This document shows, one piece after another, positions 8,625 to 53,629 of a DNA stretch of 64,000 nt. Under the pieces are notes generated by a model. The model had not been told where the DNA came from. It was given only the letters and a program-made list of their open reading frames with translations, and ran no database searches. The stretch is from Martelella sp. NC20 (GTDB taxonomy: Bacteria; Pseudomonadota; Alphaproteobacteria; Rhizobiales; Rhizobiaceae). The stretch covers positions 1,910,001 through 1,974,000 of the forward strand of contig NZ_CP054861.1 in NCBI RefSeq assembly GCF_013459645.1, in the 5' to 3' direction. Position numbers and translations under genes: made by a program. The first letter of the stretch is position 1, and every line of letters begins with the position of its first letter.

Positions 8625-8843
8625 CTAAAGAGGCAAGGCCGGCATGTTGTTCCAGCCTTCAGGACACGAGAGCTTGTTGAAGGCTGCCAGATGGGCAACG
8701 GGCAGCCTGATTGCGCCGCGCAGTTTTCAGCCATTTCTCTCCGAAATGTGTTAGCTTGGGCTTATAGGCCTGATGGGGGAGGGGGCTCCGGGACGAATCC
8801 TCTGCGACAGCGCGACTTTTGAAAACAGAAGATTGGAACTCAG
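8625..8843. other. Intergenic region upstream of the serine hydrolase
   Basis: Lies between the SDR fragment and the hydrolase start. I see no supported gene here. It should hold the hydrolase promoter. The ATG at 8844 has only a weak purine stretch upstream (AAGATTGGAACTCAG). Confidence 0.4.
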
Positions 8844-9947
8844 ATGAGATACGCCTTTGCAGCAATCGCAATTCTGGCAGCAACGCCTGCAGCAGCGAGC
8901 GACCCGCTACTCGACGAAGCCGTCGAATTCACCGGGCAGATTTTCCATCTCGACACGGGCGTTCCGGGGCTTGTGATCGCCGCCGTCAGCGGGGATGAAA
9001 GCACAGTCTTCGGCTTCGGGGAGATTGCCAAGGGCGGCGGACAGGAGCCGGATGGCGATACGCTGATCGGCGTCGGATCGGTGACGAAGACCTTCACCGG
9101 GCTTTCCCTCGCATCCATGGCCGCGGATGGCACCGTTTCGCTCACTGATCCCGTCGGCCCGCATGCCGGCGTCGTCGATGCTCTCCCTGAAAAGGACGGC
9201 CGGGCAATCCGGCTGATCGATCTCGTTACCCATTCAAGCGGATTGCCGCGCGAACTCGTCGAGGTCGAAGGCGTCGAAAGATACAGCGATGCCTCCTTCG
9301 CCGCCAATCTTTCCGAAAATCCGCTGCTGTTTGCGCCGGGTAGCGGCATTGCCTATTCGAATGTGGGCTTCGACGTTCTCGCGATGGCTCTTTCCCGCAT
9401 TGGTGGGGAAAGCTACCCGGATCTGCTCAAATCACGGGTCCTGGACCGGATCGATCTGATGTCGACAAGTTATGAACGGCCCGCGGGCGGAAACGCCATG
9501 GTCGGCTACGACTGGAACGGCAACGAAATGGACCCCGGCGATCCGATCGCAAACCGCCAGGGCGCATCGGGCCTGTACACCACGGCCAACGACATGGTGC
9601 GATATCTGCGCTGGAACCTCGATCGCTTCGGTATAGACGATGCGGAAACCCGCGCGATCAGCCACGCGGCTTGGCTGATGCGCGATGGCCTCAACCCGGT
9701 TTTGGGCATGGATGAATCCGGCCATATGGACGCGATGGGGCTCGGATGGGTGGTCATGATGCCTGAAGGCGACAGTCCGCTGATCATCCAGAAGGCCGGC
9801 GGAACCAATGGCGTGTTCAGCTACGTCGCCTTTGCGCCTTCGCGCGGCGTCGGCGTGTTCATCGCCATCAATCAGTTCAATTTCTCGGCAGCGACGGAAA
9901 TGGCCCAGATCGTCAACAATCTGATCGCAAGGCTCGCGCCGCGCTGA
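8844..9947 (+). CDS. Secreted serine hydrolase, class C beta-lactamase/D-peptidase fold
   Basis: A 367-residue protein with a signal peptide (about residues 1-19, ending AAAS) and a beta-lactamase-family hydrolase domain. It has the catalytic SxxK motif as S79-V-T-K82 and the YxN motif as Y171-S-N173. A glycine-rich AGGTNG near residue 320 sits where the third (KTG/HxG) box is expected. The family includes AmpC, D-aminopeptidases and esterases, so beta-lactam resistance should not be assumed. It converges on the sugar ABC operon. Confidence 0.82.
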   Translation: MRYAFAAIAILAATPAAASDPLLDEAVEFTGQIFHLDTGVPGLVIAAVSGDESTVFGFGEIAKGGGQEPDGDTLIGVGSVTKTFTGLSLASMAADGTVSLTDPVGPHAGVVDALPEKDGRAIRLIDLVTHSSGLPRELVEVEGVERYSDASFAANLSENPLLFAPGSGIAYSNVGFDVLAMALSRIGGESYPDLLKSRVLDRIDLMSTSYERPAGGNAMVGYDWNGNEMDPGDPIANRQGASGLYTTANDMVRYLRWNLDRFGIDDAETRAISHAAWLMRDGLNPVLGMDESGHMDAMGLGWVVMMPEGDSPLIIQKAGGTNGVFSYVAFAPSRGVGVFIAINQFNFSAATEMAQIVNNLIARLAPR

Positions 9948-16182: not shown

Positions 16183-17064
16183 TCAGGCCGCCCTGGCGAA
16201 AACCTTCCTGCCCTCGGCATCAAGTGCGGAAAAATCGTCGTCGGACAGCGCGATGTTGGCCGCCGCGACATTTTCCTCCAGATGCTTGACCTTGGAGGTG
16301 CCGGGGATCGGCAGCATCACCGGGCTGCGTTTCAAGACCCAGGCAAGTGCTACCTGGCTTGGCGCCGCGCCATGCTTGCCGGCGATATCGTCGAGCAGCG
16401 AGCCCTTGCCCGCGAGTTCGCCTGCGGCCAGCGGGAACCACGGAATGAAGCCGATATTGTTGTCGGCGCAGTAATCCAGAACGTCCTCGCTGGTGCGGTC
16501 GACCAGATTGTAGCGGTTCTGGACGGTGGCGACGGGGAAGACCTTGCGGGCGGCTTCGATTTCGGCGACCGAAACCTCGCTCAGCCCCGCATGGGCGATC
16601 AGGCCCTCATCGAGGAATTCGCGGATTGCGCCGAACTGTTCGTCGGCCGGCACTTTGCTGTCGATGCGGTGGAGTTGCCACAGATCGATCTGTTCGACGC
16701 CCAGATTGCGCAGGCTTTTATGCACCTGCTGGCGCAGATATTCCGGCCGGCCGACCGGGATCCAGACATTCGGCCCGGTGCGGGTCAGTCCGCCCTTGGT
16801 CGCGACCTTCACATTGCCGTAGGGATGGAGCGCCTCCTTGATCAGCCATTCGGAAATATCGGGACCGTAGCTGTCGGCGGTATCGATGAAATCGACGCCG
16901 AGTTCCGGCAGGCGTTTGAGGGTTGCAAGCGCGCCCTCGCGATCGTCGGGCTCGCCCCAGATACCCTTGCCGGTAATCCTCATGGCGCCGTAGCCAAGGC
17001 GATTGACGGTCAGCTTGCCGCCGATGGAAAATGTGCCGGCCTTGTCGGCGATTTTGTCAGCCAT
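16183..17064 (-). CDS. Aldo/keto reductase (YdbC-like)
   Basis: A 293-residue aldo/keto reductase with the tetrad Asp61, Tyr66, Lys90 and His132. The N-terminal [16 protein letters not shown] is typical of the YdbC/pyridoxal-reductase-like branch. It is a distant paralogue of the next AKR in the same direction, not a recent duplicate. Probably clears reactive carbonyls or reduces a sugar or vitamin aldehyde; the substrate cannot be deduced. Confidence 0.87.
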
Positions 17065-17195
17065 TGTCGTCTCCAGTGATGGAATGCGCAGGCCTGGGAA
17101 GCCCTCAGCGCAGGGAAAATGTCGATTGCCGGACTGAGGTGGGACGGAACGGGCGGAGTTTCAAGGCAACGGCCCGCCGCCGTGTCGGGATGCGG

Positions 17196-18311
17196 CTACC
17201 GCTCATTGCCGAAATATTGCTGTGCCAGTTCGCGCACGACGCCGTCCTCCTGCAGCGACAGAAGACGCAAGGTGATCGGCTGTATCAGCGTGTCCTGGCC
17301 ATAGGGCAGGGCGAAGCCGAACTTGTCGGGGGCGAAGATGCGGCCAACGACATCGAGGCCCAACGCGGGGTTTTGTGCCTTGTAGTATTCCAGCACCGGC
17401 GCATCGCCGACGATCGCGTCGATCTCTGCGCCGCGCAGCGCGGCGACGGCGTCGTCCATGCCGGTATAGGTGATGAAATCGACGCCGTTGCGGCGCATCC
17501 GGTTTTCAGCCGTCGAGCCCTTGAAGACGCCAACGGTGCGGCCCGGCAGGTCATCCGGTCCGGTGATGCTGCCGGTGATCGCGATACTGGTCATGACGCT
17601 GGTGACCGATGAGGTGATATAGGCAACGACGGCGATGCCGATGATCAGCCAGAAGGCCGAGAAAATCCTGCCATACCAGCCGAAGAGCTTGGCGCGGCTC
17701 GGCAGCGAACCCTTGGTCACCACCAGCATGACGGCATAGAAGCTTTCGGATACGCCTTCGCGCCAGCGCTTCGGAAAGTTCTTGTCGAAATGCCGGTCGA
17801 ACAGCGTCAGTCCGATGGTGCCGAGCATGATCAGCACCAGCAGCCAGGCGTAGTAGCGCAGATAACCGGCCTCGGCGAGACCGTTCCAGACATTGACAAG
17901 GGAGGAGCCGGTCCGGTCGTCGACCATGACGCGAAGCCCGGAATCGAACCAGGGCTGGGTGAAATCGACCAGTTCGGCGCGCTCTTCGGTGATCGAGATC
18001 GCGCCGACCGCCACATCGACGTCTCTGGCCGCCGTCGCCGTCAGCAGGTCCGCGACGGTTTGATATTCGACATAGGTCGGCTCGATGTTGAAGCCGTCCT
18101 CGATCTCCCGCCAGAGCTCACTCGCCATGCCGGTGATTGTGCCATCGCTCTGCTTCGTGATGAACGGCGGCAGTACGCGATAGCCAACCTTGATCTTGAG
18201 CGGTTCGCCCAGGTCCTGGCCGAAAGAAGGCCCGGCCAATCCGCACAATGCGAGAAACAACAATGAAACAAGAAGACCGGGAAGGCGCAGGTTCAGGCTT
18301 GCTTTTGACAT
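17196..18311 (-). CDS. Prokaryotic ionotropic glutamate receptor-like ligand-gated channel
   Basis: A 371-residue protein with the GluR0 layout. Signal peptide 1-31; ligand-binding lobe 1 about 35-145; transmembrane helix M1 about 151-171; a re-entrant pore segment about 188-206; transmembrane helix M2 about 216-241; lobe 2 about 243-371. Lobe 1 holds ITEERAELVDFTQPW, where R111 matches the arginine that binds the ligand carboxylate. Lobe 2 holds VGDAPVLEYY, where D303 matches the acidic residue that binds the amino group. M2 ends AYITSSVTSVMT, resembling the iGluR gate motif. The K+ filter TVGYG of GluR0 is absent; the pore reads VVTKGSLPS. It lies 20 bases downstream of the Ca2+/H+ antiporter gene, hence co-transcribed. 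An ordinary amino-acid binding protein is excluded by the two helices splitting the domain. Confidence 0.85.
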   Translation of the reverse strand: MSKASLNLRLPGLLVSLLFLALCGLAGPSFGQDLGEPLKIKVGYRVLPPFITKQSDGTITGMASELWREIEDGFNIEPTYVEYQTVADLLTATAARDVDVAVGAISITEERAELVDFTQPWFDSGLRVMVDDRTGSSLVNVWNGLAEAGYLRYYAWLLVLIMLGTIGLTLFDRHFDKNFPKRWREGVSESFYAVMLVVTKGSLPSRAKLFGWYGRIFSAFWLIIGIAVVAYITSSVTSVMTSIAITGSITGPDDLPGRTVGVFKGSTAENRMRRNGVDFITYTGMDDAVAALRGAEIDAIVGDAPVLEYYKAQNPALGLDVVGRIFAPDKFGFALPYGQDTLIQPITLRLLSLQEDGVVRELAQQYFGNER

Positions 18312-18331
18312 CAGTCGGACGGTCCTTTCGG

Positions 18332-19477
18332 TTATCCTCTGTAGATCAGCAGAAGGAAGGCGACAAACAGCAGGAAATGCACCGCGCCCTGCAACAGATT
18401 GGTGCGTCCGCTGGCGAATGTGACGATGCTGACGGCCAGAATCAGGATCAGCAGCAAGGCATCCGTCGGCGCAAGGCCGAGTTCGAGGTCGAGGCCGAGC
18501 ACGCTCGAGACCACAAGCATGATCGGCACGGTCAGGCCGATCGTGGCGAGCACCGAACCGAGGAATATATTCACGGACGACTGCAGCCGTTTGTTAAGTG
18601 CCGCCTTGACCCCGCCGATGCCTTCCGGCGTGGTGACCAGGATTGCCATCAGCACTCCGCCGATTATGCCGGGCGCGCCGTGGGTTTCGATGATATGATC
18701 GACGGGTTTGGCGAGCTGCTCGACGAGATAGACCACCGGCACGATGTAGCAGAACAGCAGGATGACGCTCAGCCAGAGCGGCCCGGAAGGCTTTTCGTGC
18801 TCTTCGGTTTGCGCGACATCCTCGTCCGGCTGGGAAAAATAGCCGCGATGCCGCCCCGTCTGCATCATCAGGAAAATGAAATAGAGGCCCGCCGCCATCG
18901 AGCCGAGCATGACTTTCTGGACGGCGCTCAGGGTCGGACCTTCGGTCGAGCTGGTGAAATCGGGCAGGATCAGGCTGAACACGGCCAGCGGTATGATCAC
19001 GCCCAGATAGGCGTTGGCGCCCTGCAGGTTGAAGGTGAGTTCGCGATGGCGCAGCGCGCCGAGCAGCAGCGAAATCCCCAGCATGCCGCCCATGATGATC
19101 ATCACCACGGAAAACAGCGTGTCGCGCACCAGCGCCGGATTGTTCTCGCCGTTGAGCATCACCGCGGTAATGCTCAGCACCTCGATGCCGGTGATCGAAA
19201 GCGTCAGCACCAGCGTGCCGAAGGGCTCCCCCAGCCGCCCGGAGATCGCCTCCGCATGACGCACGACGCCGACAGCGGCTGCCAGGATCACCAAAAAGAA
19301 CCACGCGGTCAGCAGGGCCAGCTTTAGCGGGTGGCTCATGTCGTGAAACAGCGCGTCTTCGAAAAGGAAGGCGATGATGCTGGTGATGATGGCAATCCCG
19401 AGCACGCGCTCGCGCCTGGCAAAGGCGATAAACGAGAAGCGCCCTGCGGCCTCGGCCGCGCTGTGCTCGCTGATCAA
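18332..19477 (-). CDS. Calcium/proton (sodium/calcium) antiporter, ChaA-like
   Basis: A 381-residue polytopic membrane protein of the CaCA superfamily, with two inverted hydrophobic halves of about five helices. The acidic alpha-repeat motifs are GTLVLTLSITGIEVLS in the first half and VTTPEGIGGVKAAL followed by NIFLGSVLATIGLTVP in the second. The middle linker is charged (RHRGYFSQPDEDVAQTEEHEK). ChaA-like proteins extrude Ca2+ (and Na+ or K+) in exchange for protons. It is the first gene of a two-gene unit with the iGluR-like channel, suggesting coupled ion entry and export. Confidence 0.9.
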   Translation of the reverse strand: MISEHSAAEAAGRFSFIAFARRERVLGIAIITSIIAFLFEDALFHDMSHPLKLALLTAWFFLVILAAAVGVVRHAEAISGRLGEPFGTLVLTLSITGIEVLSITAVMLNGENNPALVRDTLFSVVMIIMGGMLGISLLLGALRHRELTFNLQGANAYLGVIIPLAVFSLILPDFTSSTEGPTLSAVQKVMLGSMAAGLYFIFLMMQTGRHRGYFSQPDEDVAQTEEHEKPSGPLWLSVILLFCYIVPVVYLVEQLAKPVDHIIETHGAPGIIGGVLMAILVTTPEGIGGVKAALNKRLQSSVNIFLGSVLATIGLTVPIMLVVSSVLGLDLELGLAPTDALLLILILAVSIVTFASGRTNLLQGAVHFLLFVAFLLLIYRG

Positions 19478-19579
19478 GGGTGTGTCTCCTCGTGTCGGAT
19501 GATCCCGTCGCCTTGGGACTACCTATTCGATTGCCACGATATCGCCATCATTTCAACTGCTGGCCGTGGCGGAGACCGA

Positions 19580-22500
19580 TTAGTATTCTCTCTCGTAGAA
19601 CACGCCGCCCGATGCCTCGCCTCTCGATCCCGCCGAGCCCTTGAGGATGAAGTTGCGGCCGATATCGATATTGACGCTCGCCTTCGTGCCGGTGTCGCGG
19701 CTCTGCTCGATCTCGAGATAGGTGTTGCTGTTCAGGTATTTGCCGACGCTGACCGCGGTATTGCCGGTCGAATCCGTCGTCAGGTCGAGATTGTCGACGC
19801 CCAGCACGTCACGGATCGAGCCGAACAGGGATTGGTCCGTGCCGCCCGTCAACTGGATGACCGCGTCTGCGAGCTGGGCGATCTGAAGCGCCGAAAGCTG
19901 GGACGATGACTGGTTGAACAGAAGCTGCGCTAGGATCTCGTCGTCCGGCAGCGCCGGGGTCGAGCTCAGCTTCACCTGCGGGTCGTTGGCCACGCCTTCA
20001 AGCGCGATGGTAATCGCGGTGGAGCCGGCATTAGTGTTGGCCCTCAGATCGATCATCGGGATCAGGGCGCCGCCGAAGGTGATCCGACCCTGGGTGAAAT
20101 CGAGCCTGCGGTTGAGGATCGACAGCCGGCCGCGGATCAGGTCGAAACCGCCGCTGACAACCGGGTTCTGGGTCGTGCCGGTGATCCGCACGTTTCCGCC
20201 AAGCTCGGCGTCGATCCCGCGCCCGCGCACGAAAATCGCGTTGGGAGCCGAAATGGTGAGGTCGAGCGCCATGGAGGAGCGCGCCTCGTTGGTCTGCTGC
20301 GGCGAAAGCAACTCCGCCTGCCGGAGCACCGCCTTCGACGCATCCTGGTGGACGATATCGATCTGCGAGATCGACGCGGGCAGCCGGTCGGGGATCACGA
20401 TTGCCGTGCGGGCAAGCGTCAGCCGGCCTGAAAGTTTCGGCTGCGCCAGAAGCGGCCCCTCCAGCGTCAACGTGCCGTTGGCCGTTGTCGTCAGCAATTG
20501 TCCGTCATTGATGACCGCATTGTCGGCAACGAGCTGCAGTGAGGCGGGGAAGCTGCCGGTGATGCCGACACTTCCGTTGATCGCGAGCGTGCCGCCGCCG
20601 GCGAGCTTACCGGTGATGCCGTTGATCTCGACCCGGTCTCCGGAAAGGGCGACGCGGCCGTTTATATCATTGAGCGAAATGCCGCGCCTGATGTCGGTCA
20701 GCGCGCTGATGGCAATATCGACGCCGCCGGAATAGGAGGGGCTTGTCAGGCTGCCGCCCACCGTCATGTCGACATCGGCATTGCCGGCGATGGCAAAGCC
20801 GGAACTGGCCGCGAGCGCGGAGGCGATCTGCATCGGCAGGCGGCCGTTGATCGAGAGGTTCAGCGGCTTGTTGCCGGTGAGCCCGATCGAACCGGTGGCG
20901 CGCGCATTCATGCCCTGGGCATTGGTGATCGTGGTATCGGTGGTCACCTGGCTGCCGTCGTAGCGGCCGGTCGTGGTGACGGAAAACGACTGTCCGCCGA
21001 TCCTGCTCGCCTGCGCCAGATTGCCGTTGTCGAGGCGCAGATTGTAGTCGACCGAAGGGGTTGCCGCGGTGCCGGTCGCCGTTACCGTGCCGGATAGCGT
21101 GCCGCTGGCCCCGAGCGAGGGGACGAACTGATTGGCGATCGCGGCCGAAACGCCGCTGATATTGGCCGTCAGGTTCAGTCTCTCGCCGACGCTGCCGCTC
21201 GCGGCAACAGTGCCGCCGCCGATCCCGAGCCTGAGGCTTTCGATCGTCGTCGTGCCATTGGCGATGGTGATCCGGCCGGGTTCGAGCAGCCGCAGTCCAA
21301 CGCCCATCGGCGAACCGTCGAGGCGCTTCAGATCGATCTCCATCGTCTCGCCCCGGTTCACGGCCGCTTCCAGCGATACCGGCTGCCCGTCATAGCGGGC
21401 CGCGAGGTCGAAATTCGTGGTCGTGTCCTGGTTGCTGGCCGAAAGCGTGATGTCGGTGACGGTCTGTCCCGCAACGGCGACGGAACCGAGCGTGATCTTG
21501 CCGCTCGCCTTCAACGCAGCGATATCGGCAACCGTCATGTCGGCGTCGAGGTTTCGCGCCGTGATGCCGCTGAAGGTGACGCTTTGACTTCTGGCATCGA
21601 TCGACAGGCCGAGCCTGTCATTGGCGTTGTCGAGTTCGACGCGGCCCGCTATCGCGCCATCCGCCTTCTGGCCGGCAAGACCGGCGAGCAGTTTCAGGTC
21701 CGGGAAATCGAAGCTGATGCCGCCCGCAGGCTGGAACTTGCCGTTGAGACTGATGTCGCCGGAAAGCGTGTTGCCGCCAACCGCGCCGTCAATGCCCGCG
21801 ATCTCGATCATGCCGTCGTTCGAGGTGACATTGGCGGCAAGCGAAAGCGGCGCGCCGGCATAGCTGCCCTTGGCGGTGAGCGTTCCTGATGGCGCCGACA
21901 TATCCGCCTTGCCCTTGATCGTCGCCACGAAGTCTTCAAGCGTCTCGCCGGTGATGTCGAGACTGTCCGCCTTGACCGTGGCATCGATTTCGGGCGCGGC
22001 AAGGTCGCCCCCGATCGTGGCGTCAATGGTGGCCGAGCCCTTGACCTGCGGTGCAAGCCGGGAAAGTTCGGAAACCGTCGCCTTCAGCGTCGCGTCGATC
22101 GTTTTGCCGGTGATGCGGACATCGCCGCCGGCCTTGAGCAGTCCGTTTTCCACCTCGAGATTGGAAAGCGCCGCGGCGCCGGAAGCGGTCGAGAGGAAGA
22201 AGTCGCTCTCGATTCGGGTCATGTCGTCGATCAGGCCGGCGACCGCATCGGGAAAGGCGTCGGCGAGCACGAACAGTCTGGCGTGGCCGGTGGCGTCCTG
22301 GGTTTCGAGATCGTAATTGACGGTGGCCGTTGCGCCGATACTGCCGCTTTCAAGGGCGATGTCCTCGAGTTTTACGGTGCCTTCAGCAAGCGTGACCCGG
22401 GACTTGAACGACAGCGGCGCCTCGACCATCCGGTCGAGGCTTTCATCGCGGAAGGCAAGGCTTTCAACCGAAAGACCGGTGTTGAAGGCGCCGGTGCGGG

Positions 22501-53351: not shown

Positions 53352-53629
53352 TGATTTCCTCTAAAAAAGCCCCTCGTTGTTCACGGTGTCGGGCACCGCC
53401 GCAAGGCAGAAGCCCAGGCGCCGCTGGGGGGCTCCAGCAAGCCTGATGACAATATGAGGGGAACGGGGACGCGATACAAGGCATATCCGTTTGAATTCCG
53501 TCTGCAATTCCTCAAATTTTCGTAAGAAATACGTCCCGCGCCTTGCAAAACCCGAACAGGAAGCACCATTTCAGCTGGAAAAGGGCCGCACATCCGCTCT
53601 CGGGGCCGGCCGCAGGGTAAGAGGTATTC

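Follow-up and report, generated by a model that had tools for sequence, protein, structure and literature searches.

What would a channel gene related to ionotropic glutamate receptors (iGluRs) be doing directly behind a gene for a cation/proton antiporter? The question is raised by Martelella sp. NC20 (G000, genome size 6.1 Mb), in which a stretch of 64,000 nucleotides (contig NZ_CP054861.1, positions 1,910,001 to 1,974,000; the window) carries a chaA-like gene followed after 20 bases by an iGluR-like channel gene. Both are verified open frames on the same strand (-), as an earlier note on this DNA, made from the letters alone, had read them. Counting the window, one clade has the pair at 17 distinct places, and it recurs at two further places (G040 and G975) with a distantly related ChaA. 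The pair is kept amid changing neighbours, a relative has both parts in one frame, and the clade has a pore tip of its own, and for these reasons a coupled function of channel and antiporter is likely, judged from sequence. As to what that function is, we hold with an even degree of belief that the pair is a two-gene operon for an ion and pH (proton-motive-force) response that an amino acid triggers and the antiporter resets. We know of no iGluR relative that acts with a transporter as its partner. The earlier note had likewise called the pairing undescribed, and a partial search of the open-access literature met no description of it, which does not by itself establish its absence from print.

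Table 1. Features of the chaA-like and channel genes, in window coordinates.
Feature	Position	Strand	Basis
chaA-like gene, CaCA-superfamily cation/H+ antiporter, 381 amino acids, TTG start	18332..19477	-	Open reading frame, Pfam, NCBIfam, YfkE alignment
Prokaryotic iGluR-like channel gene, GluR0 layout, Group 2 type, 371 amino acids, ATG start	17196..18311	-	Open reading frame, Pfam, AlphaFold2, PDB comparison
GAGGAG ahead of the chaA TTG	19486..19491	-	Read from sequence
Intergenic stretch, 20 bases, AAAGGA ahead of the channel ATG	18312..18331	-	Sequence
Lobe S1, residues 38-132	17916..18200	-	AlphaFold2 model, sequence comparison
R111 codon, ligand alpha-carboxylate arginine	17979..17981	-	Alignment; role as given in PMC2950845
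M1, residues 150-175	17787..17864	-	AlphaFold2 model
Pore helix and tip, residues 183-204	17700..17765	-	Model, column conservation
Pore tip specific to the clade, T199-K200-G201-S202-L203-P204, replacing a K+ filter	17700..17717	-	Homologue alignment
M2, residues 205-246	17574..17699	-	AlphaFold2 model
Lobe S2, residues 247-368	17208..17573	-	AlphaFold2 model, sequence comparison
D303 codon, ligand alpha-amino acidic residue	17403..17405	-	Alignment; role as given in PMC2950845

The downstream product has a signal-like helix, lobe S1, M1, a pore loop, M2, and lobe S2. Pfam SBP_bac_3 covers residues 40-368 (2.3e-22), and in the AlphaFold2 model (118 sequences, mean pLDDT 88.5) M1, the pore helix (residues 183-200), and M2 sit between the lobes. 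An SBP3-type binding domain is thus split by M1, pore loop, and M2 in the manner of GluR0, and comparisons with PDB structures agree, which bears out the full GluR0 layout proposed in the earlier note. The N-terminal helix (residues 11-24) and a basic M1-P loop are compatible, in sequence and model, with lobes that would lie outside the membrane. Pfam Lig_chan matches residues 156-257 at 2.5e-5 and 24.6 bits, below the gathering score of 30.8, and is present in the precomputed domains of many channel homologues. A PDB search with the transmembrane (TM) part as a single sequence gave one match, which was unrelated (E 1.4), and a profile of the TM part gave four (E 0.49-1.5), including an Lmo2059 chain (0.49) and, weakly, plant GLR3.4 (1.5). 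Because these TM-only searches are weak, kinship of the pore rests on Lig_chan and on the fold match of the whole protein: of the 50 best Foldseek rows, those of GluA and GluN chains have alignments of 369-417 columns that take in the TM part. The matched chain of NpGluR0 from Nostoc punctiforme (PDB 2pyy) is the binding domain alone. Unlike eukaryotic iGluRs (AMPA, NMDA, and plant GLR), the window channel has no amino-terminal domain and no M4, and its pore tip is different.

The ligand residues R111 and D303 are present as the earlier note had it. Of 451 homologue matches, 120 were listed, the window protein among them; R111 is kept in 120/120 of these and D303 in all 119 that have a residue there. 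GluR0 topology without a recognised filter places the channel with the Group 2 prokaryotic iGluRs of Ger et al. 2010 (PMC2950845), which are described with two binding lobes around two TM helices and a pore loop, conserved ligand Arg and Asp, and a P region unlike filters of known selectivity. The words "operon" and "neighbor" do not occur in the main text of that paper, no partner gene was met in the parts of it consulted, and the pair clade differs further by its own tip. The channel is therefore of the same kind as the published Group 2; what is new is its conserved antiporter partner and its pore tip.

Two Na_Ca_ex stretches were recognised in the upstream protein (Pfam, 3.9e-30), which aligns with the solved structures of YfkE, a vacuolar calcium ion transporter, and vacuolar cation/proton exchanger 1. 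E99 and E285, one in each repeat, align with Glu in the two alignments shown, including that with YfkE. These two repeats and acidic residues, shared with E. coli ChaA and the CAX/YfkE proteins, assign it to the CaCA superfamily. It differs from those proteins in scoring below three NCBIfam cut-offs, namely ChaA (NF007895, an equivalog; 238 of 505 bits), caca2 (229.5 of 317), and cax (72.7 of 211). As the ChaA equivalog cut-off is not reached, we label the protein ChaA-like, and the Ca2+/H+ antiporter named in the earlier note holds at the level of the superfamily. E. coli ChaA is reported to exchange Na+, K+, and Ca2+ for H+, to have no role in Ca2+ extrusion in vivo, and to protect against K+ salinity (PMC7349511).

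The pore of the window channel reads V197-VTKGSLP-S205, and the TVGYG motif of the K+ filter that marks Group 1 is missing, as had been noted. It differs in this from Synechocystis GluR0, which has TVGYG and is described as a K+-selective Group 1 channel (PMC13099474), and from a separate GluR0-like gene of the host (L009), which has TVGYG as well. The tip T[K/R]G[S/T/A]LP occurs in 31/31 pair-clade members among the 120 listed homologues. When 30 pair-clade rows were compared column by column with 88 other rows, residue 200 was K (27) or R (3) in the former and S (76) or T (8) in the latter, and residue 202 was T, S, or A in the pair clade and R/K in 87/88 of the others; by our own cut-offs, positions 106, 196, 217, 242, and 311 separate the clade as well. 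A 309-residue homologue of 55% identity (P0068) has a TSG-type tip. Across all rows, the best-conserved parts of the channel are the pore region and M2, with 75-84% mean column identity, compared with 63-64% for the lobes.

A pore of this kind bears directly on which ion flows. The earlier note had proposed a ligand-triggered Ca2+ (or other cation) signal that the antiporter resets; in the Ca2+ version, binding of an amino acid admits Ca2+ through the channel and export by the antiporter ends the pulse. Membership of the CaCA superfamily, solved antiporter relatives that are cation and calcium exchangers, and the Ca2+-signalling roles demonstrated for plant GLRs (PMC11479355) speak for it. The tip carries K/R in all 31 listed clade members, however, no acidic residue is found from T199 to K208, and E. 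coli ChaA is reported to have no part in Ca2+ extrusion in vivo (PMC7349511). AMPA receptors with GluA2 unedited at the Q/R site are Ca2+-permeable (PMC7045468), and the fixed K/R at the tip, by a distant alignment and by analogy with Q/R-edited GluA2, would thus weigh against high Ca2+ permeability and disfavour a Ca2+ pore. We consider a Ca2+ pulse unlikely, and the Ca2+ signal proposed earlier is left unsupported.

In the reading that we prefer, chaA and the channel gene would form a two-gene operon whose proteins are made together. The channel, of the Group 2 type, would face the periplasm, bind amino acids, and have an inverted pore loop; an amino acid in the periplasm would close the binding lobes and so open the pore, ions, most likely monovalent cations, would flow down their gradient, and the ChaA-like antiporter would return the cation in exchange for H+, completing one cycle. 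The sequences GAGGAG and AAAGGA ahead of the two starts are ribosome-site-like and are candidate ribosome sites of chaA and the channel gene. A same-strand gene of 1388 residues, which we take to be tamB, ends 102 bases ahead of chaA, and downstream of the channel gene lie two genes that presumably encode relatives of aldo/keto reductases. A scan of positions 16900-19800 returned two promoter-like sites (0.7 expected), none of them upstream of chaA, and three terminator-like sites (1.8 expected), so that the operon call rests on spacing and conservation. By the listed starts, paired genes overlap by 4 bases at one extreme and are about 150 bases apart at the other. Rfam models at their gathering scores matched nothing ahead of chaA; their sole match in the window is a ybhL leader RNA (RF00520) at 53365-53445 (-), which scores 57.6 bits where the gathering score is 50.

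Both genes are under purifying selection, which, like the recurrence of the pair at so many places, shows more than a chance arrangement. Compared with M. mediterranea IOP_24, nonsynonymous and synonymous divergence (dN and dS) are 0.067 and 0.34 for the channel (dN/dS ~0.20) and 0.054 and 0.42 for chaA (dN/dS ~0.13), and the ratio is low in the membrane part of the channel (0.047/0.37).

How widely the pair is kept was followed in several genome sets. Altogether 34/108 channel loci have a ChaA match, duplicates included, and 19 distinct places remain once these are merged. In the named genome collection, where the closest loci are from Martelella, there are 25 channel loci, one of which (L066, a 30% fragment from Bifidobacterium) was left out of the counts; chaA is directly upstream on the same strand in 11/11 loci with at least 54% channel identity, and no ChaA was found within the flanks, up to 10 kb, of the 13 loci with 42-49% identity. 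The channel is present in 4/385 genomes of a class sample (E≤1e-30, own genome counted), and in 29/199 of a family sample and 52/397 of an order sample (E≤1e-40; best 4 to 10 first-look candidates per genome scored in both), the latter with ChaA in 145/397 (E≤1e-40). In the genus of G040, all ten genomes have the channel and two have the pair. In Martelella, 10/13 genomes have the channel and the same ten have a ChaA of at least 70% identity; in one genome (G081), where no channel was found, the best ChaA has 40% identity.

The surroundings of the pair change while the pair does not. With neighbours called by our own simple gene caller, the immediate neighbours on both sides differ across six contexts of the main pair clade: the tamB side (window, L042-L046, and L049), a Hoeflea metagenome-assembled genome (L047 = L133), L048, the Rhodobium type (L050 = L131, L132), L051, and Breoghania (L052). 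Within the tamB-side context, the downstream neighbour varies among members. Synteny at the level of the genus was therefore rejected as the whole explanation. In L049 ("Marinicella sp. W31"), the chaA, tamA, and tamB frames are all broken, which suggests sequencing errors, and as its channel groups with Martelella rows in the tree, the organism may be misnamed.

Trees were built after merging identical rows and dropping pieces of 300 residues or fewer, which reduced 100 ChaA sequences to 67 rows and 127 channels to 96. In the ChaA tree, the 17 paired rows fall within a group of 19 that includes two channel-less Martelella rows, and L023 and L150 stand apart (100/100) with Martelella's unpaired ChaA paralogues. 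Three pairing changes are needed, the same on well-supported branches alone, compared with 16.7 in shuffles. In the channel tree, made by a quick method, the 17 paired rows are grouped with support of 98, L023 and L150 lie among unpaired rows at forks supported by 80-94, and two changes are needed. The separate position of these two indicates that pairing arose twice or that the ChaA partner was exchanged.

These data also bear on whether the pair is simply inherited synteny of two genes without a joint function. That 17/19 places belong to one clade, and that either gene mostly stands alone in the relatives sampled, is what such inheritance would give, but immediate neighbours differ in six contexts, a second pairing involves another ChaA clade, and the two genes are jointly present in 10/13 genus genomes. 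We regard mere inheritance as very improbable.

One relative joins the two genes. In G966 (L142), CAG occupies the position of the chaA stop, which is TAG in G971, giving one open frame of 796 codons in which the channel's own ATG and AAAGGA remain. The two genomes are 97.6% identical over the locus, and comparing them gives a low dN/dS for each of the two parts (0.0089/0.107 and 0.0024/0.054). The frame is seen in one genome and may be a sequencing error. A search for further ChaA-iGluR fusions yielded 24 fused-length proteins (E≤1e-30, best 7998 candidates scored), none listed with both domains. The same search turned up proteins of 695-1006 residues that combine TerC (PF03741) with Na_Ca_ex (P0123, P0126, and P0140).

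The single frame raises the question whether the iGluR-like protein conducts at all. It could be a ligand-sensing partner or regulatory subunit that switches cation/H+ exchange and is not freely conducting, a role to which the charged, altered pore tip, the G966 frame, and the persistence of the pair among changing neighbours would also be suited. A long ChaA branch in two channel-less Martelella genomes agrees with it, although other unpaired rows are long too (L097, 0.89). Against this, the pore region and M2 are the best-conserved parts and the membrane part has a low dN/dS, as expected for a working pore, and the fusion has no counterpart among the 24 fused-length proteins. This role seems doubtful to us. 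A bolder form, one physical machine in which an amino-acid-sensing iGluR-like subunit controls a cation/H+ antiporter or directly feeds ions to it, strikes us as improbable; if it were true, an extracellular amino acid would set cytoplasmic cation and pH. The kept partner, the natural single frame, and the clade-specific tip in any case provide a testable handle on Group 2 channels.

Several observations weigh against a coupled, antiporter-reset response. In the family sample, ChaA adjoins 3/30 loci examined (31 places), and in the order sample 3/30 (53 places), the window being one of the three each time; the order counts cover loci whose DNA was examined and leave out places judged from coordinates alone. 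Six additional order-sample channel places have no ChaA neighbour. Adjacent ChaA in one clade plus two genomes means that pairing is not a feature of the whole family, and the conservation in relatives on which the earlier note had made its proposal depend holds to that extent, while most channels sampled in the wider family have no ChaA beside them. The tip is not strictly tied to pairing, as an unpaired Bradyrhizobium channel (L062) has TKG and a paired one (L023) has TSGK, and the positively charged tip may point to a pore that passes anions or conducts poorly. Gene clusters farther from the pair recur: c2, c5, c6, and c7 are shared by several contexts, L051 and L044-L046 have c12, L047 has c19, which the window also has but far from the pair, and c61 adjoins ChaA in L051 and lies 7 kb off in L052. 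They may be a remnant of shared surroundings. The well-supported branches of the channel tree alone need one change, which is compatible with a single origin of pairing. Lastly, ChaA of the pair clade occurs without an adjoining channel in 15 genomes.

In these 15 genomes, the neighbour of ChaA is of the DedA/VTT type in six, bestrophin-like in two, and of the MscS type in one (together L124, L126, L127, L129, and L195-L199); the contig ends there in one (G571), and no such neighbour gene was seen in five. VTT was confirmed by Pfam in three of the DedA/VTT neighbours (we take PF09335 to be DedA) and the others were identified by tblastn at 70-92% identity, and one of the two bestrophin-like genes is split over two frames. 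Such genes next to the same ChaA are in keeping with a function in balancing ions, pH, or the proton-motive force, for DedA on the strength of the literature. They also touch on the idea that the positive tip makes an anion-permeable pore that balances charge for the antiporter. A bestrophin-like gene beside ChaA in two genomes would agree with it, as would the positive tip residue shared by the two classes (K/R200 in 30/30 pair-clade rows, R/K202 in 87/88 others), but "bestrophin-like" names a fold and not an ion, and pores of the iGluR fold whose function is known conduct cations. We judge an anion pore to be quite unlikely and retain a cation flow through the channel, returned by the antiporter, as the preferred reading. 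In G161 and G972, a ChaA of 55% identity is kept behind tamB and the channel is gone; its branch, beside paired Martelella rows, has 1.33 changes per column, and tblastn (E 1e-3) found no channel relics in the flanking stretches examined.

The host has other iGluR-like genes. About 2 kb separate the GluR0-like gene with TVGYG (L009:5477-6616, +) from another ChaA paralogue (8631-9725, -), and in that interval are a LysR gene and one coding for an NAD(P)-binding protein. A TVGYG-type gene and ChaA are 2-4 kb apart with two genes between in 13/13 genus genomes. We did not count this arrangement as a pair, because two genes intervene and plain synteny is possible. A second iGluR-like paralogue (L008:4782-6607, -) is 47% identical, lies about 42 kb away from the window pair, has a TSGK tip, and overlaps by 4 bases a gene with PF03458 "Gly_transporter", which is presumably UPF0126/TRIC-like. 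The same PF03458 neighbour stands beside an iGluR-like gene in L148 (G977).
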